Source: an uncultured Pelagibacteraceae bacterium (GTDB lineage: Bacteria; Pseudomonadota; Alphaproteobacteria; Pelagibacterales; Pelagibacteraceae). From it: a stretch of 64,000 nt of DNA. Below the pieces are notes generated by a model, which worked only from the letters and a program-made list of their open reading frames with translations, made no database searches and was not told where the DNA came from. The translations under genes and the position numbers were made by a program. This document shows, in pieces, positions 16,902 through 48,671 of this stretch; the first letter of the stretch is position 1, and each line of letters starts with the position of its first letter. The stretch is taken from assembly GCA_902613915.1 (NCBI GenBank), contig CACMJB010000002.1:10001-74000 (forward strand). The letters run 5' to 3'.

Positions 16902-17456
16902 TTAAACTTTGGGTAATGTTACGCCTTTTTGTTTCATATACTTTCCGTTTCTTTTCGCGTAAGTAACTGCTGGTTTTTCATTGCCTTTAAGGAAAACAAA
17001 TTGCGCAACTCCCTCATTAGCATAAATCTTTGCGGGTAAGGGGGTGGTATTAGAAAATTCTAAAGTTACATGACCCTCCCAACCAGGTTCTAAAGGTGTA
17101 ACATTAACAATTATCCCACATCTTGCATAAGTAGATTTACCTAAGCAAATAACTAAAACATTATCTGGTATCTTAAAATACTCAATTGTTCTAGCTAATG
17201 CAAAAGAGTTTGGAGGTATAATGCACTCCTTGCCAACTTTTGTTACAAAACTCTCCTTCTTAAAAATTTTAGGGTCTACAATTCCTGAATTAACGTTAGT
17301 AAAAATTTTAAACTCATTAGAGACTCTGGCATCATATCCGTAAGATGAAAGACCGAATGAAATTTTTCCTTTCCTTACTTGTTTGCTCACAAATGGTTTT
17401 ATCATTCCATTTAATTTAGCTGATTTCTCAATCCATTTATCTGAAAGTACTGTCAT
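16902..17456 (-). CDS. dcd: dCTP deaminase
   Basis: Dcd converts dCTP to dUTP, feeding dTTP synthesis. The 184-aa trimeric dUTPase-fold protein has the SYGYDAR motif (~38-44), GKSTYARCG (~106-114) and the catalytic Glu in TLEFSN (~E133), followed by the glycine-poor C-terminal lid. Length is as expected. Its start lies inside the end of the upstream 40-aa ORF (20-bp overlap), which suggests coupled translation. Confidence 0.96.
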
Positions 17457-17559
17457 CTTTATTTTTTTTCTTGTTTATCTTTTTTCTTTTTTTTAAGTTT
17501 TTTTTGAGTGCCGCTTCTCGATCTCTAATAAATGAATCTTTCTTTTCAGAAATTTTCAT
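17437..17559 (-). CDS. small basic protein, 40 aa
   Basis: Reading the minus strand from ATG at 17559 gives a 40-aa polar protein, [10 protein letters not shown] then [18 protein letters not shown] and ending DDSTFR. The R-x-x-A-L-x-x-N-L-x-x-R-K pattern recurs in small alphaproteobacterial proteins encoded beside cell-wall and core genes, as I recall them. It lies 6 bp after the 64-aa gene and overlaps dcd by 20 bp. Function is unknown, but the high charge suggests RNA or ribosome contact (inference). It is short enough to be missed by automatic calling. Confidence 0.6.
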
Positions 17560-17565
17560 TATCTT

Positions 17566-17760
17566 CTATTTTTTATCTGGATTAGTCAGATCTTCAAGAG
17601 TTATCGGCTTATTAATATCGTGCATGACTTCTTGTTGTTCATTTTTGGAGGTAATGTTGTTTTTTCTTGCTCGACGTTGTTCTATACGAGCTTTTCTCTT
17701 TGCCTCTTTTTTCATCGCTTTATCGCCACGCGTAGATTTGTAGTCGTAATGAATTCCCAT
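17566..17760 (-). CDS. small basic hypothetical protein, 64 aa
   Basis: This 64-aa ORF (MGIHYDYKSTRGDKAMKKEA..., with KRKARIEQRRARK in the middle) has no domain I recognise. It is strongly basic in the middle and acidic at the end, with no membrane segment. The same-strand, 6-bp spacing to the next small ORF and dcd makes it the likely first gene of the leftward dcd-murA-hisD-infA transcript. The opposite-strand frames over the same stretch look like noise. Confidence 0.6.
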   Translation of the reverse strand: MGIHYDYKSTRGDKAMKKEAKRKARIEQRRARKNNITSKNEQQEVMHDINKPITLEDLTNPDKK

Positions 17761-17953
17761 AAGTTCTCCTGCATCTATCTACTTCTACTTCTGCTGACGA
17801 TAATTTGCAAGTATTCTTCTGAAAAAAGCTGTAAATAAATTGTTTTTATCCTTTTAAAGACTGATTATATGAAAAAAATATAACAAATCGTTCAATTAAT
17901 GAACAATAAACTGTACAAAAATTGAACAAAATGTTAATTAAACTTAATATTTA
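17761..17953. promoter_or_regulatory. divergent intergenic region with GTTC/GAAC palindrome
   Basis: These 193 bases separate the leftward core operon from the rightward phosphoramidate-type operon and hold no gene. At 17890-17904 lies a perfect GTTCA-N5-TGAAC palindrome. Further GAAC half-sites follow at 17901-17904 and 17923-17926 (ttgaac). The array ends about 28 bp before the start codon at 17954, a fitting place for an operator. The spacing does not match the alphaproteobacterial LexA box (GTTC-N7-GTTC direct repeat), so the regulator is unknown. Confidence 0.4.
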
Positions 17954-20299
17954 ATGAGCAAAACTAAAGCTGAAACTTTAAAATCATTAGAAAAAAAACT
18001 TAAACATTTTAAAGTTCCTAAAACTTATTTTTTTAATTTCAATGATTGGAAAAATAAAAAAGACTCTATACTTGAAAATATCAAATTAAATTTCAAAAAA
18101 AAAATTGCTGTAAGATCGTCAGCAGTAGATGAAGATAAACTTAGTGGATCACAAGCAGGTAAATATTTAAGTTTTTTGGATATAGATAATAAGAAGGAAG
18201 AATTAAAAAAAAAAATAACTAATATTTTTAAAAGTTATGAAAGAAATTCAAACAGTGAAAAAAACCAAATATTAATTCAAAATATGATTACAAATGTAAA
18301 AATGAGTGGAGTAATTTTTACTCATGATGCAGACAACAATTCACCTTACTATTGTATTAATTACGATGACATTTCTGGAAAGTCAGATACAGTAACATCA
18401 GGCAGAGGCATATATTCTAATAAAAGTTTATATTTGTTGAGAGGAAAAGAAAATAAACTCAAGTCGAAAAGGTTTATTAATTTAATTTGTGCTGTTAAAG
18501 AACTTGAAGATTCAGTAGATAATAATAAGATTGATATAGAGTTTGCCCTCACTAAAAAAAACACATTATATTTGTTGCAAGTAAGACCTTTAGCAAAAAA
18601 GAAATTTATATATAATCAAAAATTTTTTAACAAAATTTCTAATATAGTTTTAAATGTAGAGAAAAAATTAAAACCAAAGTTTAGAAAAAACAAATACATT
18701 TGTGGAAAAACTACGGTGTTTGGTCAAATGCCAGACTGGAATCCTGTGGAAATGATAGGCTTACATCCATCAAAATTAGCATTTTCACTTTATAAATATT
18801 TGATAACTAAATCCTCATGGTTAGTTTCAAGAAAAATGATGGGATACAAAGGTATTAAAGATCCAGATTTAATGTTAAATATAATTGGAAAACCTTACAT
18901 AGACGTAAGAAAAAGTTTTAATTCTTTCCTGCCAAAAAAATGTAACAAGATTTTAAGTAATAAGGTAATTGATGCTGCTATTGAGAAACTAAAATTAGAA
19001 CCTAATTTACATGATAAAGTTGAATTTGATGTAATTCCAAACTGTTATTGTTTAGACTTTGAAAAAAAATTCAATAAATACTCTAACACAATTAAAAAAG
19101 ATGAATTAATGTACCTAAAAAAGGAATATAAAAATATTTTTATCAAAAATTTGTTTTCTGGAAAAGGAAGCATTGATTATAACCTATTACAAATAAAAAA
19201 TTTAAAAAAAAAACAGGAGGCAGATAATATTTATAATGAGAATTTGTCAGTTTTTAATATTAAACAAATTTTAGATGACTGTAAAAATTTTGGTGTAATA
19301 CCTTTCGGAATATTAGCTAGACACGCATTTGTAGCAAAAGAAATTTTAAATTCGTTAGTAAGATTAAAAATATTGAATGAAACAGACGTTTCTATTTTTA
19401 ACACTAATATTGAAACAATTACCAACTCTTTTTTAATAGATCTAAAAAAATTAAAAAAAAGAAAAATTAGTAAAAAAATATTTTTAAATAAATACGGACA
19501 TTTAAGACCTGGTACATATGATATAAATTCAAAAAGTTACAAAGAGATGTCTTTAAATGGAATAAAAATAACTGACAACTTAGCTAAAAAAGGGTCAGTT
19601 TATTTTTTAAAAAAAAAACTAAGAAGACATGAGAAAAAAATAAATAAATTATTAAAAAAAGACCTAATTCCTTTGGAGTTTGACACTTTAATTGATTATC
19701 TAACAAAATCATTCTCTAGCAGAGAGTATGCTAAATTTATTTTTTCGAAAAACATAAGTTTAGTAATTGAAGTATTAAAAAAATACGTGAAAGAAAATAA
19801 AAAAAGGATCGATTTTGTTGACAATTTAGAAGTTACAGATTTATTTTCAAAAAATATTTTCTCAAGAAAAAATATTTATAAATCAATTAAGAACAAGAAA
19901 AAATTTCAACTTGATAGCTTAATAAAATTGCCACAAATTATTTACGATCCGAGTTATTTAAATGTAATACCTTTTCAAACGAGTTTTCCAAATTTTATTA
20001 GCTCAAAGAAAGTTACAGCTAAAGTCATATTATTAAGTAAAAACAAAAATAAAAATAAGTTAATCAATAGCATAGCTATGATTGAAAATGCAGATCCTGG
20101 ATATGATTGGATATTTGGTTTTAAAATCAAAGGTTTAATTACAAAATTTGGAGGAGCCAACTCCCATATGTCTATTAGATGTGCTGAATTAGGTATACCA
20201 GCCGCGATTGGCTGTGGCCATCAATCTTACTCTAATTATGAAAAATCAAAACTGTTAGAATTGAATTGTAAAAGTAAATCGATAAAAATAGTTAACTAA
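17954..20299 (+). CDS. L-glutamine kinase-like enzyme (PEP-synthase-related; Cj1418-like)
   Basis: The 781-aa protein has the PEP synthase plan: an ATP-grasp N-terminus with VRSSA (53-57), E60 and GSQAG (65-69), SGVIFTHD (~118-125) and QVRP (209-212); a long middle domain with YGHLRPGTYDI near 515; and a C-terminal phosphohistidine domain with H738 in GGANSHMS. It lacks the PEP-binding barrel of true PEP synthase. The size, the YGHLRPGTYD block and the His position agree with the C. jejuni enzyme Cj1418, which phosphorylates the amide nitrogen of L-glutamine via a phosphohistidine (family knowledge). The next two genes match the following pathway steps. Another phosphoryl acceptor is possible, since rifampicin phosphotransferases share this fold. 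It is the first gene of a rightward operon. Confidence 0.78.
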   Translation: MSKTKAETLKSLEKKLKHFKVPKTYFFNFNDWKNKKDSILENIKLNFKKKIAVRSSAVDEDKLSGSQAGKYLSFLDIDNKKEELKKKITNIFKSYERNSNSEKNQILIQNMITNVKMSGVIFTHDADNNSPYYCINYDDISGKSDTVTSGRGIYSNKSLYLLRGKENKLKSKRFINLICAVKELEDSVDNNKIDIEFALTKKNTLYLLQVRPLAKKKFIYNQKFFNKISNIVLNVEKKLKPKFRKNKYICGKTTVFGQMPDWNPVEMIGLHPSKLAFSLYKYLITKSSWLVSRKMMGYKGIKDPDLMLNIIGKPYIDVRKSFNSFLPKKCNKILSNKVIDAAIEKLKLEPNLHDKVEFDVIPNCYCLDFEKKFNKYSNTIKKDELMYLKKEYKNIFIKNLFSGKGSIDYNLLQIKNLKKKQEADNIYNENLSVFNIKQILDDCKNFGVIPFGILARHAFVAKEILNSLVRLKILNETDVSIFNTNIETITNSFLIDLKKLKKRKISKKIFLNKYGHLRPGTYDINSKSYKEMSLNGIKITDNLAKKGSVYFLKKKLRRHEKKINKLLKKDLIPLEFDTLIDYLTKSFSSREYAKFIFSKNISLVIEVLKKYVKENKKRIDFVDNLEVTDLFSKNIFSRKNIYKSIKNKKKFQLDSLIKLPQIIYDPSYLNVIPFQTSFPNFISSKKVTAKVILLSKNKNKNKLINSIAMIENADPGYDWIFGFKIKGLITKFGGANSHMSIRCAELGIPAAIGCGHQSYSNYEKSKLLELNCKSKSIKIVN

Positions 20300-20911
20300 A
20301 TGAGAATAGTTGTAACATTGAGAGAAACAAAAATCTCAAAAATAAAAGAGACAAGAGAGTCGATTGATAAGAAGTTAATTTCCTTATTGGTTAAAAATGG
20401 CCTAACTCCAATATTGATCCCAAGTGAGCTTGGAACGCCCAAAAATTACAAGAAATTAGTTTCTTTTTTAAAGTTATCGAGACCTAGCGGTTTATTATTA
20501 TCTGGAGGGGAGGATATCAAATTAAATTCTGCAAGATACTATTTGGAAAGAAAACTTTTTAAATATTTTTTTAGAAAAAATAAAAAGATTTTTGGTATTT
20601 GTAGAGGTTTGCAAATGATCTCTGATATTTTTCAAGTTGGTTTAAGAAGAACAAATTTGAAAGTGCGAAAAACTTATAAAATAAAAAATTTAGATAATAA
20701 AAAACATTATTTTGGAACTTGTTATTTTAAATGGGAAATTAAAAATTGCCCTAAAAACTTTTTAATTACTTTTTTATCTGAAAATAATACTATCTGGGGA
20801 ATCAAACATAAGTCGAAAAACTGTGAGGCGCTTATGCTACATCCCGAGAGAGAAAAAACTTCTAATTTAAATTTTCAAAAATATATAAAAAATTTTTATA
20901 GGAAAAAATGA
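20300..20911 (+). CDS. class I glutamine amidotransferase-like hydrolase (gamma-glutamyl-CDP-amidate hydrolase-like; Cj1417-like)
   Basis: This 203-aa peptidase C26-type protein has LLLSGGEDI (~66-74), the nucleophile C101 in GICRGLQ, and H181 with E183 in LHPERE, completing a Cys-His-Glu triad. In C. jejuni, Cj1417 hydrolyses L-glutamyl-CDP-phosphoramidate to glutamate and CDP-phosphoramidate. The similar length and the location directly after the kinase and before the cytidylyltransferase support the same role here. A gamma-glutamyl-GABA hydrolase-like activity is the alternative if context is ignored. The gene starts on the base after the upstream stop and overlaps the next gene by 4 bp. 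Confidence 0.78.
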   Translation: MRIVVTLRETKISKIKETRESIDKKLISLLVKNGLTPILIPSELGTPKNYKKLVSFLKLSRPSGLLLSGGEDIKLNSARYYLERKLFKYFFRKNKKIFGICRGLQMISDIFQVGLRRTNLKVRKTYKIKNLDNKKHYFGTCYFKWEIKNCPKNFLITFLSENNTIWGIKHKSKNCEALMLHPEREKTSNLNFQKYIKNFYRKK

Positions 20912-21615
20912 TAGGTATTATATTGGCTGCTGGTAGAGGTTCAAGAATGGGTAATTATACCTTGAATAAGCCTAAATCATTTATAGTTTATAAAAAGAAA
21001 AAACTAATTGATCATATTTTGCAAAATTTTAAAAAAAACGGAATTAATAAAATTTATATTATTACAGGTTATAAAAAAAAACTATTTGAAAATATTAAAG
21101 TTAAAAAAATTTATAACAATAAATGGAAGTCAACAAATATTTTTTATTCACTTTATAAAGCTAGAAAATTAATGCTTAAAGAACCATGTATAGTTTCCTA
21201 CGCAGATATTTTCTATGATTATCTGGCAATAAAAAAACTTAAACCACGAAAAGATTTGATTACTGTATTGTCTTATAAGCTGTGGAAAAACAATTGGAAT
21301 AAAAGATTTTTAAATCCTTTAAGCGATTTAGAAAGTTTTGATTATGATAAAAAAGGTTACTTGTTAAAAATCGGAGAAAAAGTAAAAAATGTAAAGGGTA
21401 TTAAAGGTCAATTTTCTGGTTTATTTAAAATAACACCTAAAGGTTGGCTTATAGTTGAAAATTACCTTAAAAAAAAAAACAAAAACAAATTCTTTAAAAA
21501 AGATATAACAGGGTTTTTAAAAGATTTTATCAAAACAGAAAAAAAAATTGTTAAAATTAGAAACTATTCTGGTAAGTGGAATGAAATTGACAGACAATCT
21601 GATTTAAAATTATGA
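20908..21615 (+). CDS. nucleotidyltransferase (CTP:phosphoglutamine cytidylyltransferase-like; Cj1416-like)
   Basis: This 235-aa protein of the sugar-phosphate/phosphocholine nucleotidyltransferase fold has LAAGRGSRMG (6-15), KPK (21-23), a metal-binding YAD (D100), and a WNEIDRQSDL end like LicC-type cytidylyltransferases. In the C. jejuni pathway Cj1416 joins L-glutamine phosphate with CTP to give L-glutamyl-CDP-phosphoramidate. The base specificity cannot be read from sequence, so a choline-phosphate or sugar-phosphate substrate remains possible. The gene overlaps its upstream neighbour by 4 bp. Confidence 0.75.
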   Translation: MIGIILAAGRGSRMGNYTLNKPKSFIVYKKKKLIDHILQNFKKNGINKIYIITGYKKKLFENIKVKKIYNNKWKSTNIFYSLYKARKLMLKEPCIVSYADIFYDYLAIKKLKPRKDLITVLSYKLWKNNWNKRFLNPLSDLESFDYDKKGYLLKIGEKVKNVKGIKGQFSGLFKITPKGWLIVENYLKKKNKNKFFKKDITGFLKDFIKTEKKIVKIRNYSGKWNEIDRQSDLKL

Positions 21616-21624
21616 TATAATTAT

Positions 21625-22599
21625 ATGTTGAGAATTAAAATACTAGTAACTTTAGGACCGTCATCCTTAAATTCAAAATTTTTAAAATTTTCTAAGGGAA
21701 ATGTAGATTTGTTGAGATTAAATCTATCACATATTAATAGTGATGAACTTAGTGATCTAATTGATTATATACGAAAATATAATAAAACAACACCTATTTG
21801 TATCGATACTGAAGGAGCACAAATTAGAACAAAGTTTAATAAAAAATTTTTAAGAAAGAATCAAACATTTAAAATTAACTTAGATAAAAAAAAAGCAACT
21901 TTTTACCCAAGTGAATTTTTAACAAAAATAAAACTTAACGATATTTTTTTAATCGGTTTTGAAAATTTAGAGGCGAAAGTTAAAAAAATTAATGAAAAAT
22001 TTATTTTTTTAAAAGTATTAAGGTCAGGTTATATTGAAAATAACAAAGGGGTACATTTAAAAAATAGAAAGGTAAATTTACATTTTTTAACAAAAAAAGA
22101 CAATATTTGTATTAATATTGCAAAAAAAAAGAAGATTAATAATTTTGCTCTTTCTTTTACAAATTCAAGTAAAGATGTAATAAATTTTAGAAATTTATTA
22201 CCTAAGACAAATAGGATATTTAAAATTGAGACATTGAAATCTATTCAAAATTTAAAAAAAATTATTCAATACGGAGATAATTTTTTAATTGATAGAGGTG
22301 ATTTATCCAAAGATGTAACAATAGAAAAAATTCCTTATTACCAGAGAGAAATTATAAAAACTATTAAGAAAAGTAAGAAGAAAAAAAATATATTTATAGC
22401 AACTAATCTATTAGAAAGTATGGTTAATAATCCGTACCCAAACCGAGCTGAAACTAATGATATTTATAATTGTCTCGAAATGGGCGCTACTGGATTGGTT
22501 CTGGCTGCAGAAACTGCAATTGGAAAGCATCCTATTGATGCAGTCATCTTTTTAAAAAAAATGATCCGCTCATTCAAAACTTTTGGAAATAACAAATGA
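21625..22599 (+). CDS. short pyruvate kinase-like protein of unknown role
   Basis: At 324 aa this protein holds the pyruvate kinase barrel and an inserted B-like domain but lacks the C-terminal allosteric domain (full enzymes are ~470 aa). Catalytic signatures persist: RLNLSH (31-36), DTEGAQIRT (61-69), the KIE triad (200-202), DRGDL (223-227), ATNLLESM (259-266), NRAE (273-276) and AAETAIGKHP (294-303). The core has diverged from housekeeping pyruvate kinase and is Lys/Asn-rich. It sits inside the phosphoramidate-type operon. It might regenerate ATP from PEP, or act on a PEP-derived or phosphoramidate substrate. Both are inference, and C. jejuni has no such gene in its locus as far as I recall. 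Confidence 0.75.
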   Translation: MLRIKILVTLGPSSLNSKFLKFSKGNVDLLRLNLSHINSDELSDLIDYIRKYNKTTPICIDTEGAQIRTKFNKKFLRKNQTFKINLDKKKATFYPSEFLTKIKLNDIFLIGFENLEAKVKKINEKFIFLKVLRSGYIENNKGVHLKNRKVNLHFLTKKDNICINIAKKKKINNFALSFTNSSKDVINFRNLLPKTNRIFKIETLKSIQNLKKIIQYGDNFLIDRGDLSKDVTIEKIPYYQREIIKTIKKSKKKKNIFIATNLLESMVNNPYPNRAETNDIYNCLEMGATGLVLAAETAIGKHPIDAVIFLKKMIRSFKTFGNNK

Positions 22600-23879
22600 A
22601 AATTATAAATATTGCCTCGATTAACAGACATGGTGGATCCTTACTAGTCAGATTGCTTGATGGTCATCCAGATATCGCTGCATATCCAGTTGAAAAACAT
22701 TTTTTGAGAGATGAAAAAACATTTCCATTTGCTGATAAACTCACTGGTTCACCAACATATGTTCCAGATATAGAAGATTTTAAGAAGTTTGGGAATTTGC
22801 AAAAATTTTTTGAAGTGCCTTCCCAAAAACCTCAAATTATTCATAGATGGGGTAAAGAAAAAGCTGACTCAATTGGAATAAGAAAAAATTATTTGGAAAA
22901 AGCTTTTTATCAGAATGTTCAAACTGATTTTAATTATAAAAGATTTATTAGCCTTTTAAATGAGTCAGACCAAAAATTTGATAATATAAATGATGTTTAT
23001 GACAATTTTCATAAAGCCTATTTTAAATCATGGGATGATGGCAAACATATGGGGAGTGGTGAGTTTGTTGCTTTTAATGGAAGCGGAGGTCTATTTTTAA
23101 AAAATTTCGATAAATACTTTTCGGAATTTAAAGGTTCTTTTGCTTTAATTCCAATAAGAAACATTGAGACATATATATCATCAGAAAAAACAAGGCTAGC
23201 CAGACTGTTCTTTGGCACAAGAAGATTTAATAAACCTAATTTACCATACTATTTAATTAAAAATTTTTCTTACTATGACCTTAGATCTATAATTAGAACA
23301 TGGAAAGTTTCAGTAACAAGAGCTTTTATTTTGTCGGAAAATTTAAAAAATGATAATTTTTTAATTTATAGATACGAAACACTTGTAACGAAAACTGAAC
23401 AAGTAATGAGAGATTTGTGTAATAAAACTGGAATAAAATATAATAATATCTTACTAAAACCTACGCTGGGAGGAATTCATTGGTTGGGAAATTCTCATTA
23501 CGGACCACAAAATGGAATTAACTTATCAAATCATGTTTCTAAAGTTTTAAGGAGAGATGAACTGGATATCATAAATGAAGAAACTGGCAATCTGATGAAT
23601 TCTATTGATAAAATAGACGATAGCTTTCTAAATATTAAATCTATAGATAAAAAACTTTTGTTCGACTATGATTTGCAAAAAAGTTATTCCAGAGACATTG
23701 ATAAATGGACACTATATTCAGCTTTATCTTTCAGAGGTTTTAGGTCTGCAAGAATAAAAAAAAATAGTTTCTTAAATGTAATTGCTTTTTTATTTTCAAT
23801 TTACTCGTACATTTTTAATATACCAAGATTGTTAAAGTTAAATTTTTTTCCAAATAAAGGCAAACAAAACTATACATGA
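22596..23879 (+). CDS. sulfotransferase-fold protein (candidate phosphoramidate transferase)
   Basis: The 427-aa protein starts with a P-loop-like segment NRHGGSLLVRLLDGHPDI (10-27), the position of the 5'-phosphosulfate-binding loop in sulfotransferases. It has a 3'-phosphate-binding-like motif IPIRNIETYISSEKTR around R188 and S195/S196. No signal peptide is visible; the hydrophobic stretch near residues 392-407 could touch the membrane. It overlaps both neighbours by 4 bp, with the CysC-like kinase next. A 3'-phospho-CDP-phosphoramidate resembles PAPS in having a 3'-phosphate, so I infer it transfers phosphoramidate; true sulfation is the alternative. Confidence 0.65.
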   Translation: MKIINIASINRHGGSLLVRLLDGHPDIAAYPVEKHFLRDEKTFPFADKLTGSPTYVPDIEDFKKFGNLQKFFEVPSQKPQIIHRWGKEKADSIGIRKNYLEKAFYQNVQTDFNYKRFISLLNESDQKFDNINDVYDNFHKAYFKSWDDGKHMGSGEFVAFNGSGGLFLKNFDKYFSEFKGSFALIPIRNIETYISSEKTRLARLFFGTRRFNKPNLPYYLIKNFSYYDLRSIIRTWKVSVTRAFILSENLKNDNFLIYRYETLVTKTEQVMRDLCNKTGIKYNNILLKPTLGGIHWLGNSHYGPQNGINLSNHVSKVLRRDELDIINEETGNLMNSIDKIDDSFLNIKSIDKKLLFDYDLQKSYSRDIDKWTLYSALSFRGFRSARIKKNSFLNVIAFLFSIYSYIFNIPRLLKLNFFPNKGKQNYT

Positions 23880-24430
23880 AACTTAAAAAACAACTACCTA
23901 AAGCTGGTGTTTTATGGCTAACTGGTTTATCTGGCTCAGGCAAAACAACTATAACTAAAATATTGTATAACCATCTCAGGAAAAAATATAATAAGATAAA
24001 ACTTTTAGATGGAGACGTTTTAAGGTCTAGGGAAAAAATTTATCATTCAAAAAATTCTTTCACAAAATCAAATAGAATAAAAATTGGAAAATTATATTCA
24101 CGTATTTGCAAAAAATTTGTAAATAAGGGTTATTTTGTGATTATCGCTGTTATGGCTCTTTATAAAGAAGTTCACGGGTATAATAGAAAAACAATTAAAA
24201 ACTATATAGAAATTTTTTTAGACGTTCCAATAAAAGAATTAATTAAAAGAGATCCAAAAAAAATTTATAAAAAATTTTTTCAAAAAAAAATTAGTAACGT
24301 AACCGGTTTAGATTTGAAATACGATAAACCAAAAAAAAGTAACATTACGATTAAATGGAAAAATAATGTACTGAAGGAAAATATTGTCAAAAAAATTTTG
24401 ATATATTTAATGAGAGAAAGAAAAATTTAA
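23876..24430 (+). CDS. CysC-like kinase, probably cytidine diphosphoramidate kinase (Cj1415-like)
   Basis: This 184-aa protein has the APS-kinase fold with Walker A GLSGSGKT (17-24) and LDGDVLR (44-50). It departs from true CysC at marker sites. The usual FS..DR.ENIRR is FTKSNRIKIGKLY, and the ISPYRADR loop is MALYKEVHGYNR. From memory the latter form is typical of the Cj1415 subgroup, which phosphorylates the 3'-OH of CDP-phosphoramidate. The RDPKKIYKK and TGLDLKYDKP segments are kept. No ATP sulfurylase gene lies near, and SAR11 lacks assimilatory sulfate reduction, which argues against a sulfate role. Confidence 0.75.
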   Translation: MKLKKQLPKAGVLWLTGLSGSGKTTITKILYNHLRKKYNKIKLLDGDVLRSREKIYHSKNSFTKSNRIKIGKLYSRICKKFVNKGYFVIIAVMALYKEVHGYNRKTIKNYIEIFLDVPIKELIKRDPKKIYKKFFQKKISNVTGLDLKYDKPKKSNITIKWKNNVLKENIVKKILIYLMRERKI

Positions 24431-25408
24431 ATGAAAAATATAAATTGGGCTGCACCAGATTTAGTCTGTAATAAGATAGTTTTTATAGATGGTTTGTCTA
24501 GATCAGGAAAAACAATGATTGGTCCTATTGTCTCCTCTTTTAATAGAACCTATCCTTTTCAACACCAGATCTTGATTGATAATTTGGTTCTTTTGCTCAA
24601 TAACAAATCAATCACGAAAGAGGCGTGCAAAACATTAGTAAATATTTTTTTAAACCAAAATATTTATTATCTCAATATTTCACGATGCATTAATCTGCGT
24701 CCAGATGACAATAGTAGCATAATTAAAGATAAAAATTATAAAAAGTTTATTAAAAATTTAAAAAAAAAAGAGGGAGACTATGTGATTGATAAAATCAAAA
24801 AAGATAAGTTTTTACCTGTATTTATGTCTCATGATCTTCTTAGTTATGTTAAAAATTTAGAACAAATTAAATTAAATTTTAAGATAGTTTACGTCATTAG
24901 AAATCCTATGGATAATATTTACTCTTTTTATTCAAAATATAATGCAAGGTATAAAAAAGAAAAGTATAACTTAAATAATCCAAGATTTTACTCTTTATCT
25001 GTAAAAAAAGATAATCGATTATTACCTTATTACGCATATAAAAATAATAAGAAATTTTTAAAACTCAATAATGCTGAAAAGGCAGCCTATTATTATTTAG
25101 ATTCAATGAAAAAATCTATTAAAAATTATAAAAAAATTAAAAATAAAGAAAAGAAAATTTTGGTAATCAGATTCGATGACATGACTCAAGATCATAAAAA
25201 TACTTTAATTAGAATTAGTAAATTTTTAAATATTAAAAAAAGTAAACATACATTTAAAATATTAAAAAAAGAAAGAGTGCCAAGAAAAAAAGATGACGAG
25301 ATTAAATATAAAAAAAGAAAAGTTCTTAAAAATGTAATAAGACCAAAAATTTTCAAAGAATTAGAAAAGTTTGAAAATTCCTATAAAAAAAATTCTTTAT
25401 TTGTGTAA
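24431..25408 (+). CDS. second sulfotransferase-fold protein (candidate phosphoramidate transferase)
   Basis: This 325-aa protein has a Walker-like loop GLSRSGKTM (21-29) and the sulfotransferase 3'-phosphate-binding pattern VYVIRNPMDNIYSFYS (153-168, R157 and S165). The C-terminal third is very Lys-rich. It is the last gene of the seven-gene operon and follows the CysC-like kinase with no gap. Two different transferases suggest two acceptor positions, as C. jejuni can carry more than one phosphoramidate transferase. Sulfotransferase activity is possible if PAPS is made elsewhere. Confidence 0.62.
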   Translation: MKNINWAAPDLVCNKIVFIDGLSRSGKTMIGPIVSSFNRTYPFQHQILIDNLVLLLNNKSITKEACKTLVNIFLNQNIYYLNISRCINLRPDDNSSIIKDKNYKKFIKNLKKKEGDYVIDKIKKDKFLPVFMSHDLLSYVKNLEQIKLNFKIVYVIRNPMDNIYSFYSKYNARYKKEKYNLNNPRFYSLSVKKDNRLLPYYAYKNNKKFLKLNNAEKAAYYYLDSMKKSIKNYKKIKNKEKKILVIRFDDMTQDHKNTLIRISKFLNIKKSKHTFKILKKERVPRKKDDEIKYKKRKVLKNVIRPKIFKELEKFENSYKKNSLFV

Positions 25409-25474
25409 AAATAATTCTATGGATCTTAGAGGAAATAAAAAGCTCAAATGTAGAATTTTGTATAATCAAAGGTT

Positions 25475-27205
25475 TTATTTATCAATTTTACAACCTTGAT
25501 CAGTACAGTTTCTTCCTGAACTTTTATTATTGTAATAATCTAATGCCCTTATAGCTGTTAACATATGATTTTTGTAAATATTTAAATATCCATTAAGACT
25601 ATCTGATAATTCTTTAGCTTCTTTCATCTTTCCTAGTCTGACTAAATTTATAAGCATCATTGCGTTTCCATTTGGAATAGTATTGTCACCAATATCAATT
25701 GGATTAAAAAAAATATCATTATGATCTTTCTGATTTTTTTGAAATATATTCTTTTCTTTTACATAAAATTTTGAAAAAGCTTCATCAATTAATTTATTTG
25801 CATAATCTTTATATTTAAAATTCATAGTTTTATCAAAGAGATCGTTCAATGCATTAATTAAAAAAGCATAATCTTCTAAAAACACGATTTCTTTAGAATA
25901 AGAATGTTGAATATTTTTTTTTATATATTTTTCTTCAATAATTGAAAAAAAGCTTTCCGCTAGATTAAGGTATTTTTTTTCAGGCAAAATTTCATGAGCT
26001 GCAATTAAAGAACTAACCCACAAACAATTTAAGTCAAGTTGGGACTTATCATCAAAAAAAGGTTTTTTTCTTTTTTTTCTTATCTCTAAAAGTTTATCTA
26101 TTATCACTTTCGGCGGCTTGCTTTTTTCAACTAAAATGTTTTTATTTTCCCAATTTCCTGATGCACTTACTTCAAAGTATTCATGAATTTTATCTATATT
26201 TTTAATTTCTTCATATTCGAAAACATAGTATTTGCCTTCTTCACCTTCACTGTCTGCATCATAAGCAGACCCTAATAATTTCTCTTTGTTTAAAAACTCA
26301 AACCTTAAAAAATCTATTGTCTGCTCTAATTTATCTTTAAAATACTTTTCATTATTAATTTTACAATACTTAGCTAAAAGTAAGATAAATTGAGTATTGT
26401 CATATAACATTTTTTCAAAGTGAGGAATAATCCAGGCATCATCAACGGTATATCTAGAAATGCCTCCCTCAATATGATCATAAATTCCTTTTGAACAAAG
26501 TTGTTTAATAAGAATATTAACAGGTTCTAAATATTTTTTATCTTTAGTTGTGTTGTGGAAGTATAAAAGTGTTTCGAATAAATTAAATGTAGGAAATTTA
26601 GGAGCGCCTTTGTATCCTCCCTTTTCTGGATCTAAATAATTTAAGGACGCTTCTATGATAGGTTCAAGATCCTGACTTAGAACTGAATTTTTTTTTAAAT
26701 CTAAATTTTTTATAATTAAGTCTTTTTGGTTAATAATATTTGTTTTTTGTTCTATGTATGAGTCGTAAACTTTTTGTAAAACTTCTTTAAAAGATGGTAA
26801 ACCGTTTTTTGAATTTTTTGGAAAATAAGTTCCGCCCATAAACGGTACTCCATTTTCATCGAGAAACATAGTTAAAGGCCAACCTCCTCCCGATTGATTA
26901 AATAATTGAAATGAACTTTGGAATACAAAATCAAGATCAGGTCTTTCTTCTCTATCAACTTTAATATTTAAAAAATATTTGTTCATTAAATCAGCTGTCT
27001 CTTTATCTTCAAAACTTTCATGTGCCATTACATGACACCAATGGCAACTCGCATATCCTATGCTCAATAAAATAGGTTTAGAATTTTTCTTAGCTTCTTC
27101 TAAAGTATTTTTTGACCATGTTTGCCAATAAACAGGATTGTTTTTATGCTGCCTTAAATATGGGCTTGGGTCATCAACTAAATTATTTTTATTAAGATCA
27201 ATCAT
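25475..27205 (-). CDS. thioredoxin-like DUF255 (YyaL/SSP411 family) protein
   Basis: This 576-aa cytoplasmic protein has an N-terminal thioredoxin-like domain with the CHWC motif (C54, C57) in GYASCHWCHVMAHESF, followed by an alpha/alpha-toroid region like N-acylglucosamine epimerases (blocks GISRYTVDDAWIIPHFEKMLYDN and AYDADSEGEEGKYY). The YyaL family is widespread; its precise reaction is not settled. Start and length fit the family. It overlaps the upstream VTT-domain gene by 4 bp. Confidence 0.92.
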   Translation of the reverse strand: MIDLNKNNLVDDPSPYLRQHKNNPVYWQTWSKNTLEEAKKNSKPILLSIGYASCHWCHVMAHESFEDKETADLMNKYFLNIKVDREERPDLDFVFQSSFQLFNQSGGGWPLTMFLDENGVPFMGGTYFPKNSKNGLPSFKEVLQKVYDSYIEQKTNIINQKDLIIKNLDLKKNSVLSQDLEPIIEASLNYLDPEKGGYKGAPKFPTFNLFETLLYFHNTTKDKKYLEPVNILIKQLCSKGIYDHIEGGISRYTVDDAWIIPHFEKMLYDNTQFILLLAKYCKINNEKYFKDKLEQTIDFLRFEFLNKEKLLGSAYDADSEGEEGKYYVFEYEEIKNIDKIHEYFEVSASGNWENKNILVEKSKPPKVIIDKLLEIRKKRKKPFFDDKSQLDLNCLWVSSLIAAHEILPEKKYLNLAESFFSIIEEKYIKKNIQHSYSKEIVFLEDYAFLINALNDLFDKTMNFKYKDYANKLIDEAFSKFYVKEKNIFQKNQKDHNDIFFNPIDIGDNTIPNGNAMMLINLVRLGKMKEAKELSDSLNGYLNIYKNHMLTAIRALDYYNNKSSGRNCTDQGCKIDK

Positions 27206-45380: not shown

Positions 45381-45896
45381 ATGAAAATAATTTGTGATTG
45401 GGAAAATTGTAAAGAAACTGGATCTTATAAAGCTCCAATAGAAAAAGATAACAGTAAAAAGTACCGATTGTTGTGTCTTAATCATATTAAAATATTTAAT
45501 AAAAATTGGAATTATTTTGAGAATATGAATGATCAGGAAATAGAATTTTTTATAAAATCGGATTTAACTTGGCATAAATCTACAAAAACTTTTGGTTCTT
45601 CAGATAACTTTTTTAATATTTTATGGAATAATGCTCTTGATGATAAATTAAATATTTTTAAAAGCTCAAATTTTAGAGATTTTAAGAAAACAAAAATCTC
45701 TCAGCAGGATAAGGATGCTTTACAGGTTATGGAATTAAACGAAGACGTTAAATGGGAACAAATTCACTCAAAATTTAAAGAACTTGTAAAAAAGTATCAT
45801 CCTGATAAAAATCAAGGAAATAAAAAATTTGAAGATAAATTAAAAAAGATTACTTTGGCTTATAGCCAACTTAAGAAAACTTTAGGAAAAAAATGA
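45381..45896 (+). CDS. J-domain (DnaJ-like) co-chaperone
   Basis: This 171-aa protein has a compact J-domain at its C-terminus (~112-170) with the HPD motif at 140-142. The N-terminal ~70 aa have two Cys pairs (C5/C10, C32) and conserved aromatic residues, as in the alphaproteobacterial group of small J-proteins found before cobS. It would stimulate DnaK ATPase, perhaps for a client encoded nearby. It overlaps cobS by 4 bp. Confidence 0.9.
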
Positions 45897-46870
45897 AAAT
45901 GGAACAATTTTTACAAAAAACAGATATCAAATTATCAGTAAAACAAACATTTGGATTTGATAGTGATATGCAAGTTGGGGCTTTTTCAAAAAAAAATGAA
46001 TACGTTCCAAAAATAGATCCTGATTATAAATTTGATAAAGATACAACTCTAGCTATCCTAGCTGGCTTCTCTTTTAATAAGAGAGTTTTAATTCAAGGTT
46101 ACCACGGAACAGGAAAATCTACTCATATCGAACAAGTAGCTGCAAGACTAAACTGGCCTTGCGTAAGAGTTAATTTAGACAGCCACATAAGTCGAATAGA
46201 TTTAATAGGTAAAGACGCCATTGTATTAAAAGATGGAAAACAAATTACAGAGTTCAAAGAGGGCATTTTACCGTGGTCAATTCAAAATCCAGTTGCATTG
46301 GTTTTTGATGAATATGATGCTGGAAGACCTGATGTGATGTTTGTGATTCAGAGAGTTTTAGAAAATGAAGGAAATTTTACATTGTTAGATAAAAACAAAG
46401 TTTTGCAACAACACGATTTATTCAGAATTTTTGCAACAACAAATACTGTAGGTCTGGGTGATACAACTGGACTGTATCACGGAACACAGCAAATTAACCA
46501 AGGTCAGATGGATAGATGGAATATTGTTTCAAATTTAAATTATTTACCGTTTGAAAAAGAACTAGAAATAGTTTTAGCGAAAAATAAGAATTTAAATAAT
46601 AAAGAAGGAAAAGAACTTTTATCAAACATGATAAAAGTTGCTGATTTGACAAGAAAAGGTTTCATTAATGGTGATATTTCCACTGTTATGAGTCCTCGTA
46701 CAGTTTTACATTGGGCAGAGAATACAAGTATATTTAAAGATCAAGGATATGCTTTTAGAATTACATTTTTAAATAAGTGTGATGAATTAGAGAAAAAAAT
46801 AATTTCTGAGTACTACCAGAGATGTTTTGGAGAAGATTTGCCAGAATCATCTATAAATATCACTTTATAA
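45893..46870 (+). CDS. cobS: CobS-like AAA+ ATPase
   Basis: CobS is the MoxR-type AAA+ subunit that, with CobT and CobN, inserts cobalt in aerobic B12 synthesis. The 325-aa protein has Walker [10 protein letters not shown] (69-77), Walker [11 protein letters not shown] (135-144) and the sensor ATTNT motif. A second ATG 6 bp further in is also usable. No CobN or corrin genes lie in the window, and many alphaproteobacteria without B12 synthesis keep CobS/CobT, so a different chelatase-like or remodelling role is likely here. Confidence 0.9.
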
Positions 46871-46871
46871 A

Positions 46872-48671
46872 GTGGAAAATAAAAAAGAAAAAATAGCTGA
46901 TTTTAAAACTGCAATAAGTTCCACAGTAAAATCACTGTCAAATACAGAAAAAATTGAAGTTTCGTTTGGTAATGAAATTTCCAAATCTGGAACAAATACA
47001 ATTAGATTGCCAGAATTAAGCTCTATTAATAATAAATTAAATTATAATCAAATAAGAGCAATAGCGGACTCGAAATCCTTGAGGCATAGATTCTCTGACC
47101 TTAAAACATTTAAACAATATGAGCCCGATGGAAATATATCTAAGCAATTATATAGGATTGCAGAGAAGATTAGATGTGAAAAAATTGGAACTAGCTATTT
47201 TAAAGGAGTAAAAAACAATATTGAAACTTTTTACCAAGAAAGAGTCTCTGGCTTAGACCTTAAAAGTAGTGAAGATAAAATTGTTGAGTCTTTTGAAAAT
47301 TATTTGCGAACTAAATTCCTTGATTTTGAAAATAATAGTCAAATCGATAAAAAACTAAAATCTTATAAAAAGGATTTAAATGAGAAATTTAAAAATAAGA
47401 TAGGTCAATTGAATGAATTTGCTTTAGATCAAGAAAAATTTAATTCCCTAATTTCTGAGCTTATTGCAAATATGAATCTAGATGAAAATCTAGATGAAGA
47501 AGAAAAAAAAGATGATGAAAAAAATAATGATGATAAACAAAATAAACCTGATAACCAGGAAAAGCATGCAAAAGAAAAAGAAGACAAGCAGCAAGAGATG
47601 TCGATAGACTCTAGTATACCTGACCTTGAAAATGAGGCTAAAGAGTCAGACCAAGTTGAGGAAGATGTTGAAATAGAGGATAGCTCTCAACCAGATTTAA
47701 GAAAAAAAGGTAAGAGTGCTTTAGGTGACATAGGTTATAAAACCTACACTGAAGAATTTGATGAAATTATCAAAGCAGAAGAACTAGAGAATACTGAAGA
47801 ACTTACAAGACTAAGAAAAAATTTAGACCAGCAATTACTTCAACTTAAAAATTTCATTTCTAAACTTGCAAACAAGTTACAGAGAAAACTTTTAGCTAAA
47901 CAAAATAGATCTTGGAATTTCGACCTTGAAGAGGGTTTATTAGACACATCAAAACTACCAAGAATAATTATGGATCCATTCAATTCTTTATCTTTTAAAA
48001 AAGAAAAAGATATCGAGTTCAAAGATACGCTGGTAACAATTTTAATTGATAATTCTGGTTCAATGAGAGGTAAACCTATCTCAGTAGCAGCAATCTGCGC
48101 TGACATACTTTCAAGGACATTAGAACGATGTGCAGTTAAAGTAGAAATACTTGGTTTCACTACAAAACATTGGAAAGGAGGATCTTCTAGAGAAAAATGG
48201 ATGAAAAATGATAAACCAACTTTACCAGGAAGATTAAATGATCTTAGACACATTATTTATAAATCAGCGGATACTCCTTGGAGGCAGTCTAAAAATAATA
48301 TGGGTCTAATGCTTAAGGAAGGGTTGTTAAAAGAAAATATTGATGGTGAAGCACTTAAATGGGCTTACAATAAAATGAATCGAAGAAAAGAAGAAAGAAA
48401 AATCCTTATGGTTATTTCAGATGGAGCTCCAGTGGACGACTCTACTCTATCAACTAACACCAGTGACTATCTAGAGTCTAATCTTAAAAAAACGGTCAAA
48501 TGGATTGAAAATAAAACAAATATTGAATTATTGGCTATTGGAATTGGTCATGATGTTACAAGATATTATAATCAAGCTGTAAAAATTACAGATGTTCAGG
48601 ATTTAGGAGATGTAATGATTAATCAGCTAACTGACTTATTTGTCGAAAAAAATAAAAAAACAATTCACTAA
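46872..48671 (+). CDS. cobT: CobT-like VWA-domain protein
   Basis: This 599-aa partner of CobS starts with GTG one base after the cobS stop. The N-terminal CobT domain is followed by a long acidic linker (~210-280, Asp/Glu/Lys-rich) and a C-terminal von Willebrand A domain with the MIDAS motif DNSGSM near 392. The plan is that of MoxR-VWA systems, where the ATPase ring and the VWA protein remodel a target or load a metal. The usual third subunit, CobN, is not seen here. Confidence 0.9.

Follow-up and report, generated by a model that had tools for sequence, protein, structure and literature searches.

A predicted CDP-phosphoramidate operon with sulfotransferase-fold partners in a SAR11-type genome

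What is made by an operon that places a predicted glutamine kinase beside a relative of CysC, the adenosine 5′-phosphosulfate (APS) kinase, and two sulfotransferase-fold proteins, in a genome with no detectable genes for sulfate activation? The operon lies at positions 17954-25408 of a 64,000-nucleotide stretch of DNA (the window) from an uncultured Pelagibacteraceae bacterium of the SAR11 type (GenBank assembly GCA_902613915.1, contig CACMJB010000002.1), part of a 1.0-Mb genome that is 93% complete. Protein families, gene context and chromosomal site indicate that this 7.5-kb island probably makes and transfers a phosphoramidate group, and its assignment as a predicted cytidine diphosphate (CDP)-phosphoramidate operon is well supported at the level of family and context. 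The pathway itself is known from Campylobacter jejuni, in which Cj1415-Cj1418 make CDP-phosphoramidate 3′-phosphate from glutamine, ATP and CTP (PMC11800397); of most interest here are its broad distribution and its sulfotransferase-fold partners.

Organisation of the operon

The operon consists of seven intact open reading frames (ORFs) on the + strand with intergenic spacings, in gene order, of 0, -4, +9, -4, -4 and 0 bp, and the ORF listing thus agrees with the tight packing and protein sizes given in an earlier interpretation of this DNA made from its letters (the sequence-only reading). The island, its predicted products and its borders are as follows (PEP, phosphoenolpyruvate; PPDK, pyruvate phosphate dikinase; GATase, glutamine amidotransferase).

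17763..17953, left border of the island with the sequence upstream; relatives with an empty site are homologous only up to about 17762
17954..20299, + strand, glutamine kinase (Cj1418-type), 781 amino acids, with ATP-grasp (PPDK_N) and phosphohistidine (PEP-utilizers) domains and catalytic His738
20300..20911, + strand, gamma-glutamyl-CDP-amidate hydrolase (Cj1417-type class I GATase), 203 amino acids, C101/H181/E183
20908..21615, + strand, CTP:phosphoglutamine cytidylyltransferase (Cj1416-type), 235 amino acids, NTP_transf_3 2e-12
21625..22599, + strand, pyruvate-kinase-like barrel protein without the C-terminal domain, 324 amino acids, PF00224 2.6e-51
22596..23879, + strand, ST1, sulfotransferase-fold candidate phosphoramidate transferase, 427 amino acids, PF13469 27.1 bits
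23876..24430, + strand, CysC-like CDP-amidate 3′-kinase (Cj1415-type), 184 amino acids, PF01583 109.8 bits
24431..25408, + strand, ST2, sulfotransferase-fold candidate phosphoramidate transferase, 325 amino acids, PF00685 1.3e-13
25409..25474, right junction, adjoining the conserved yyaL-like gene (25475-27205, - strand)

On its other side the operon is flanked by dcd (16902-17456, - strand), and with a G+C content of 24.4% it is more A+T-rich than the rest of the window (28.3%). Scans for promoters and terminators gave signals at or below shuffle expectation.

Four predicted core enzymes of the C. jejuni type

The families of all four C. jejuni phosphoramidate enzymes are present, as the sequence-only reading had proposed, and the likeness to Cj1415-Cj1418 rests on NCBI's models and on gene content. 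The product of gene 1 matches NCBIfam model NF004508 over its full length with 754.6 bits (cut-off 501), whereas PEP synthase and prodigiosin ligase models reach 42.7-56 bits, the lowest value being that of the PEP synthase model TIGR01418 (cut-off 739.75). Identity as a PEP synthase, the outcome that the sequence-only reading had named as speaking against its proposal, is ruled out by these scores (754.6 against about 50 bits). A genome scan for kinase homologues gave at least 591 pattern matches, at least 561 of them confirmed by tblastn, of which the best 80 were kept; 85 kinase loci were examined, among them that of the window and five of SAR11 relatives. The proposed catalytic residue H738 is invariant in all 85, and a GGxNSHM motif is invariant or nearly so among the 85 homologues, where PEP synthase 2ols has GG(R)TCH.

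Gene 2 encodes a hydrolase of the class I amidotransferase fold whose top NCBIfam model is NF045546 (gamma-glutamyl-CDP-amidate hydrolase), at 63 bits below the cut-off of 250. The 57 hydrolases encoded next to glutamine kinases in other loci all match this model as well, and of the families that they match it gives the best single E-value (1.4e-44). Of the proposed catalytic residues, H181 and E183 are invariant across 57 homologues and C101 is conserved in at least 90%. The solved structure closest to gene 3, a MobA-like/NTP transferase, is LicC, a CTP:phosphocholine cytidylyltransferase (1jyk, E 2e-13); from its family and gene neighbours gene 3 is predicted to act as a phosphoglutamine cytidylyltransferase.

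The same chromosomal site in relatives

In the single-cell genome AG-910-C16 (locus L057) an uninterrupted operon of the four core genes occupies the same place, flanked by dcd and the yyaL-like gene; identities to the window are 61% for the kinase, 54% for the hydrolase, 60% for the transferase and 51% for the CysC-like protein. This operon lacks the pyruvate-kinase-like gene and any sulfotransferase, and no upstream element conserved with the window was found beyond the flanking gene. Of 29 close relatives tested, 25 have an empty site, with about 510 bp between dcd and yyaL; in the other four no yyaL turned up within 1.5 kb. A blastn search of 17457-17953 against the empty-site relatives matched only to about position 306 of the query (17762), and the small ORF of the relatives' spacer is replaced by the operon in the window. 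The kinase tree pairs the window with AG-910-C16 (support 100) and places 14 of 15 SAR11 sequences, together with one other alphaproteobacterial sequence, in one set (support 97). Because of this same-site operon, the empty sites and the kinase tree, the core is taken as an island common within SAR11, with genes 4, 5 and 7 as gains in the window lineage or losses in AG-910-C16. As AG-910-C16 carries just the four core genes at this site, the pyruvate-kinase-like gene is a modular addition, as ST1 and ST2 may be too.

Distribution of the gene set

Neighbouring genes were counted within 5 kb of the kinase for the hydrolase and transferase and within 9 kb for the CysC-like gene, and the counts are lower bounds since many loci lie on short contigs. 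The hydrolase is near the kinase in at least 69 of 85 loci, hydrolase and transferase together in at least 65, and all four genes in at least 46. The recurrence of the trio across phyla and the same-site set in AG-910-C16 argue that this association is not due to chance, and its absence from related genomes, which the sequence-only reading had regarded as fatal to its proposal, was not observed. Among the matches listed, the kinase occurs in Pseudomonadota, Bacteroidota, Planctomycetota, Verrucomicrobiota, Omnitrophota, Bacillota, Actinomycetota, candidate phyla and two archaeal groups. Within SAR11 the co-occurrence for which the sequence-only reading advised a search is seen in full in AG-910-C16, but the kinase itself is sparse, exceeding the cut-off in 5 of 150 genomes besides that of the window (many of these genomes are incomplete). 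The predicted pathway is thus widespread and not confined to SAR11 and Campylobacter.

Several kinase loci show other arrangements. A protein of about 245 amino acids resembling Formyl_trans_N (with an HxHxGxLPxxRG motif) and a partner of about 190 amino acids without a clear Pfam family recur beside the glutamine kinase (e.g. L098:8669-9981 and L033:5035-6181) and co-occur strongly (20/31 vs 0/30 loci). The pair is absent from the window and is possibly an alternative cap or transferase. The kinase at L032:8869-11856, 995 amino acids long, carries a fused nucleotidyltransferase-like domain at its N terminus. A full-length relative (32%) is found on an unannotated 9.5-kb phage record labelled Bacteriophage sp. 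(MT837632.1:682-3006) and others on 15 plasmid records; a scan of a viral contig collection with the window kinase gave no match.

The CysC-like kinase and the absence of detectable sulfate activation genes

The CysC-like protein is the sole APS_kinase match detected in the genome and shares 31% identity with E. coli CysC; it passes model NF004041 'adenylyl-sulfate kinase' (161.6 > 127) and fails the equivalog TIGR00455 (117.4 < 138.7). Some SAR11 relatives have true APS kinases as CysNC-sized fusions, and in the best tree these form a clade with E. coli CysC (support 98) that leaves the window protein outside. APS kinases carry an FTG motif whose Phe stacks against the APS adenine; this Phe is present in 12 of 13 APS kinases, whereas the window protein and 42 of the 48 homologues linked to a glutamine kinase have Val. 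The separation from APS kinases put forward in the sequence-only reading is therefore seen in the best tree and in the FTG residue, but the approximately unbiased (AU) test does not reject joining the window protein to the APS kinases (p 0.208), so the tree was set aside as sole proof.

ATP sulfurylase (PF01747) gave no match in this genome or in ten other SAR11 genomes with a glutamine kinase. Neither CysD nor CysH was found in this genome, its lone weak PF01507 match (below cut-off) being the GMP synthase GuaA; PF01507 matches in the other ten genomes are partial and fall in frames of about 520 amino acids (GuaA-sized) or 350-365 amino acids. In this genome there is therefore no evident APS or 3′-phosphoadenosine 5′-phosphosulfate (PAPS), and sulfation is unlikely on gene content.

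CysC-like kinases also occur without a glutamine kinase in SAR11 phosphonate-like clusters (L150-L152, L154, L156 and L157), next to proteins that we named by eye as PEP-mutase-like and phosphonopyruvate-decarboxylase-like, which suggests 3′-phosphorylated CMP-phosphonate donors. At two SAR11 kinase loci (L061:14233-15659 and L069:13304-14718) the CysC-like gene has as neighbours a methyltransferase and a protein of the histidine phosphatase family.

ST1, ST2 and the proposed transfer step

ST2 is a clear member of the sulfotransferase family by its PF00685 match, whereas ST1 is borderline (27.1 bits against a cut-off of 27) and its assignment is backed by a fold match. The AlphaFold (AF2) model of ST1, built on an alignment of seven sequences (predicted template modelling score, pTM, 0.83), has as its best PDB match the tyrosylprotein sulfotransferase TPST-1 bound to 3′-phosphoadenosine 5′-phosphate (PAP) (E 9e-6), a fold that does not distinguish PAPS from other 3′-phosphonucleotides. 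Both proteins thus have the fold that had been proposed for them, and both, as we read their sequences, keep the RxG-type 5′ loop and an R...S spacing of the 3′-phosphate site. They are the only sulfotransferase-family matches detected in the genome and flank the CysC-like gene, with a 4-bp overlap on one side and 0-bp spacing on the other. Because they are the only sulfotransferases detected and adjoin the only detected APS-kinase-type protein, and because no source of PAPS was detected in the genome, 3′-phospho-CDP-amidate is their likely donor, and they probably move a phosphoramidate group rather than sulfate; the operon thereby proposes a user for the 3′-phosphate.

In the proposed route the glutamine kinase would start a C. 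jejuni-type synthesis of CDP-phosphoramidate 3′-phosphate. The cytidylyltransferase would then use CTP to add a CMP unit, forming glutamine-linked CDP, the GATase-fold hydrolase would take off glutamate to leave CDP-phosphoramidate, and the CysC-like kinase would put on the 3′-phosphate. ST1, ST2 or both would bind this 3′-phosphonucleotide as sulfotransferases bind PAPS and pass the phosphoramidate group to hydroxyls of a surface glycan, releasing CMP 3′-phosphate. A Pfam search of the seven proteins found no methyltransferase in the operon, and this part of the sequence-only reading stands. Cj1419 and Cj1420, putative methyltransferases of C. jejuni, have no assigned function (PMC11800397), and their lack here therefore says little about methylation. 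The C. jejuni group itself is found both with and without the methyl (PMC9561416).

The pyruvate-kinase-like gene and other features

Gene 4, a barrel-only pyruvate kinase homologue left unnamed in the sequence-only reading, keeps by eye what we take to be the pyruvate kinase barrel residues, and a separate full-length pyruvate kinase is present in the genome. Eleven other SAR11 genomes have short paralogues (45-59% identical), mostly in glycan clusters and often beside sulfotransferase-like proteins or P-loop kinases; ten of these genomes have no glutamine kinase match over the cut-off. As such a gene is near only 3 of 85 glutamine kinase loci and is common in SAR11 glycan clusters without the kinase, a role as fifth pathway enzyme is unlikely, and gene 4 is probably a modular SAR11 glycan-cluster gene outside the core pathway. 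This barrel-only family of about 320 amino acids is represented in SAR11 by loci L038-L048 and L189-L198, mostly in surface-glycan clusters. Elsewhere in the window (45893-48671) CobS-like and CobT-like genes stand side by side in this streamlined genome.

Alternative explanations

We hold more tentatively, at a little short of an even chance, the joint proposal that sulfotransferase-fold enzymes act as phosphoramidate transferases with 3′-phospho-CDP-amidate in the role of PAPS, which would account for the 3′-phosphate, and that P-N surface decoration is widespread across bacterial phyla and some archaea, no peculiarity of Campylobacter, and an exchangeable surface modification in SAR11. A number of observations weigh against phosphoramidate synthesis and transfer as proposed here. 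The hydrolase scores far under the NCBI equivalog cut-off; the AU test permits an APS-kinase placement of the window CysC-like protein, and also of the trio that it forms with those of L057 and L058 (p 0.691); and the genome is 93% complete. A CysC-like gene was not found within 9 kb in 34 of the 85 loci, and 3′-phosphorylation is therefore not universal. Sulfotransferase genes are commoner in CysC-bearing loci (18/42 vs 3/19, Fisher p 0.047), a weak association among loci that are not independent. AG-910-C16 has no sulfotransferase beside its core genes and no PF00685 match in its assembly, so ST1 and ST2 could have come as cargo of their own, or a different transferase could exist.

That last possibility belongs to a reading which we consider unlikely, though it is the one among the alternatives with most in its favour: CDP-phosphoramidate would be made as in C. 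jejuni, ST1, ST2 and the pyruvate-kinase-like protein would be unrelated glycan genes, and the true transferase would lie elsewhere or be unrecognised. The bare core of AG-910-C16 fits it, as do the kinase-free glycan clusters in which the gene 4 paralogues often sit beside sulfotransferase-like genes, and the presence of a sulfotransferase of these types within 9.5 kb in just 21 of 61 kinase loci with adequate flanks. It accounts poorly for the close flanking of the CysC-like gene by the genome's sole detected sulfotransferases, with no PAPS source found, and for homologues of ST1 and/or ST2 in the kinase loci L034, L035, L058, L066, L077 and L086. An enzyme of the glutamine kinase family might instead phosphorylate another amide or amine, the cassette activating a different phospho-compound via CTP; the kinase-free CysC-like genes in the phosphonate-like clusters lend this some colour, but the gamma-glutamyl-CDP-amidate-type hydrolase that accompanies the kinase in 69 of 85 loci points to a gamma-glutamyl intermediate, and we regard it as improbable. 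Least probable of all is a sulfation cassette, in which CysC would be an APS kinase, ST1 and ST2 would be ordinary sulfotransferases using PAPS, and the genes of PEP-synthase-like and NTP-transferase type would serve glycan metabolism. The resemblance to E. coli CysC, the pass on NF004041 (not on TIGR00455), the PAP-type folds and the AU result speak for it; the well supported clade that excludes the window protein, the exchanged FTG residue and the glutamine kinase and amidate hydrolase that it leaves unexplained speak against it, and it was rejected as best explanation because ATP sulfurylase, CysD and CysH were not found in the genome, nor ATP sulfurylase in the ten other SAR11 kinase genomes.

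Comparison with known systems

A 2022 review calls glutamine kinase C. jejuni-specific (PMC9561416); contrary to this label, full-length kinase relatives with the same gene partners are found in many other phyla and in SAR11, whose cells rank among the most abundant in the ocean. This distribution predicts P-N bonds of biological origin in the surface glycans of marine cells. No relevant report of phosphoramidate in SAR11 was found in the open-licence literature, and prior reports elsewhere are possible. In C. jejuni the phosphoramidate group affects phage interactions (PMC3907429), and by analogy the predicted SAR11 group may have a role against pelagiphages.

The operon resembles the C. jejuni Cj1415-Cj1418 system of the O-methyl phosphoramidate (MeOPN) capsule in having the same four predicted enzyme types in one operon (PMC11800397, PMC3907429). 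It differs in its two sulfotransferase-fold proteins and pyruvate-kinase-like gene, its free-living SAR11-type host, its lack of a methyltransferase, its position away from glycan genes, and a hydrolase that is just distantly similar to NCBI's model. Gene 1 shares with PEP synthase and PPDK the order of its PPDK_N and PEP-utilizers phosphohistidine domains and departs from them in its NF004508 score and in GGxNSHM replacing GG(R)TCH. With PAPS-dependent sulfation the operon has in common the CysC fold, the sulfotransferase fold and the logic of a 3′-phosphonucleotide donor; unlike that system it stands in a genome in which ATP sulfurylase, CysD and CysH were not detected, is linked to a glutamine kinase, and has changed residues on the purine side of CysC. 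The predicted product, an unmethylated P-N surface group, would be like the unmethylated phosphoramidate that reports cited in PMC3907429 describe for Xanthomonas campestris and Shewanella lipopolysaccharide.

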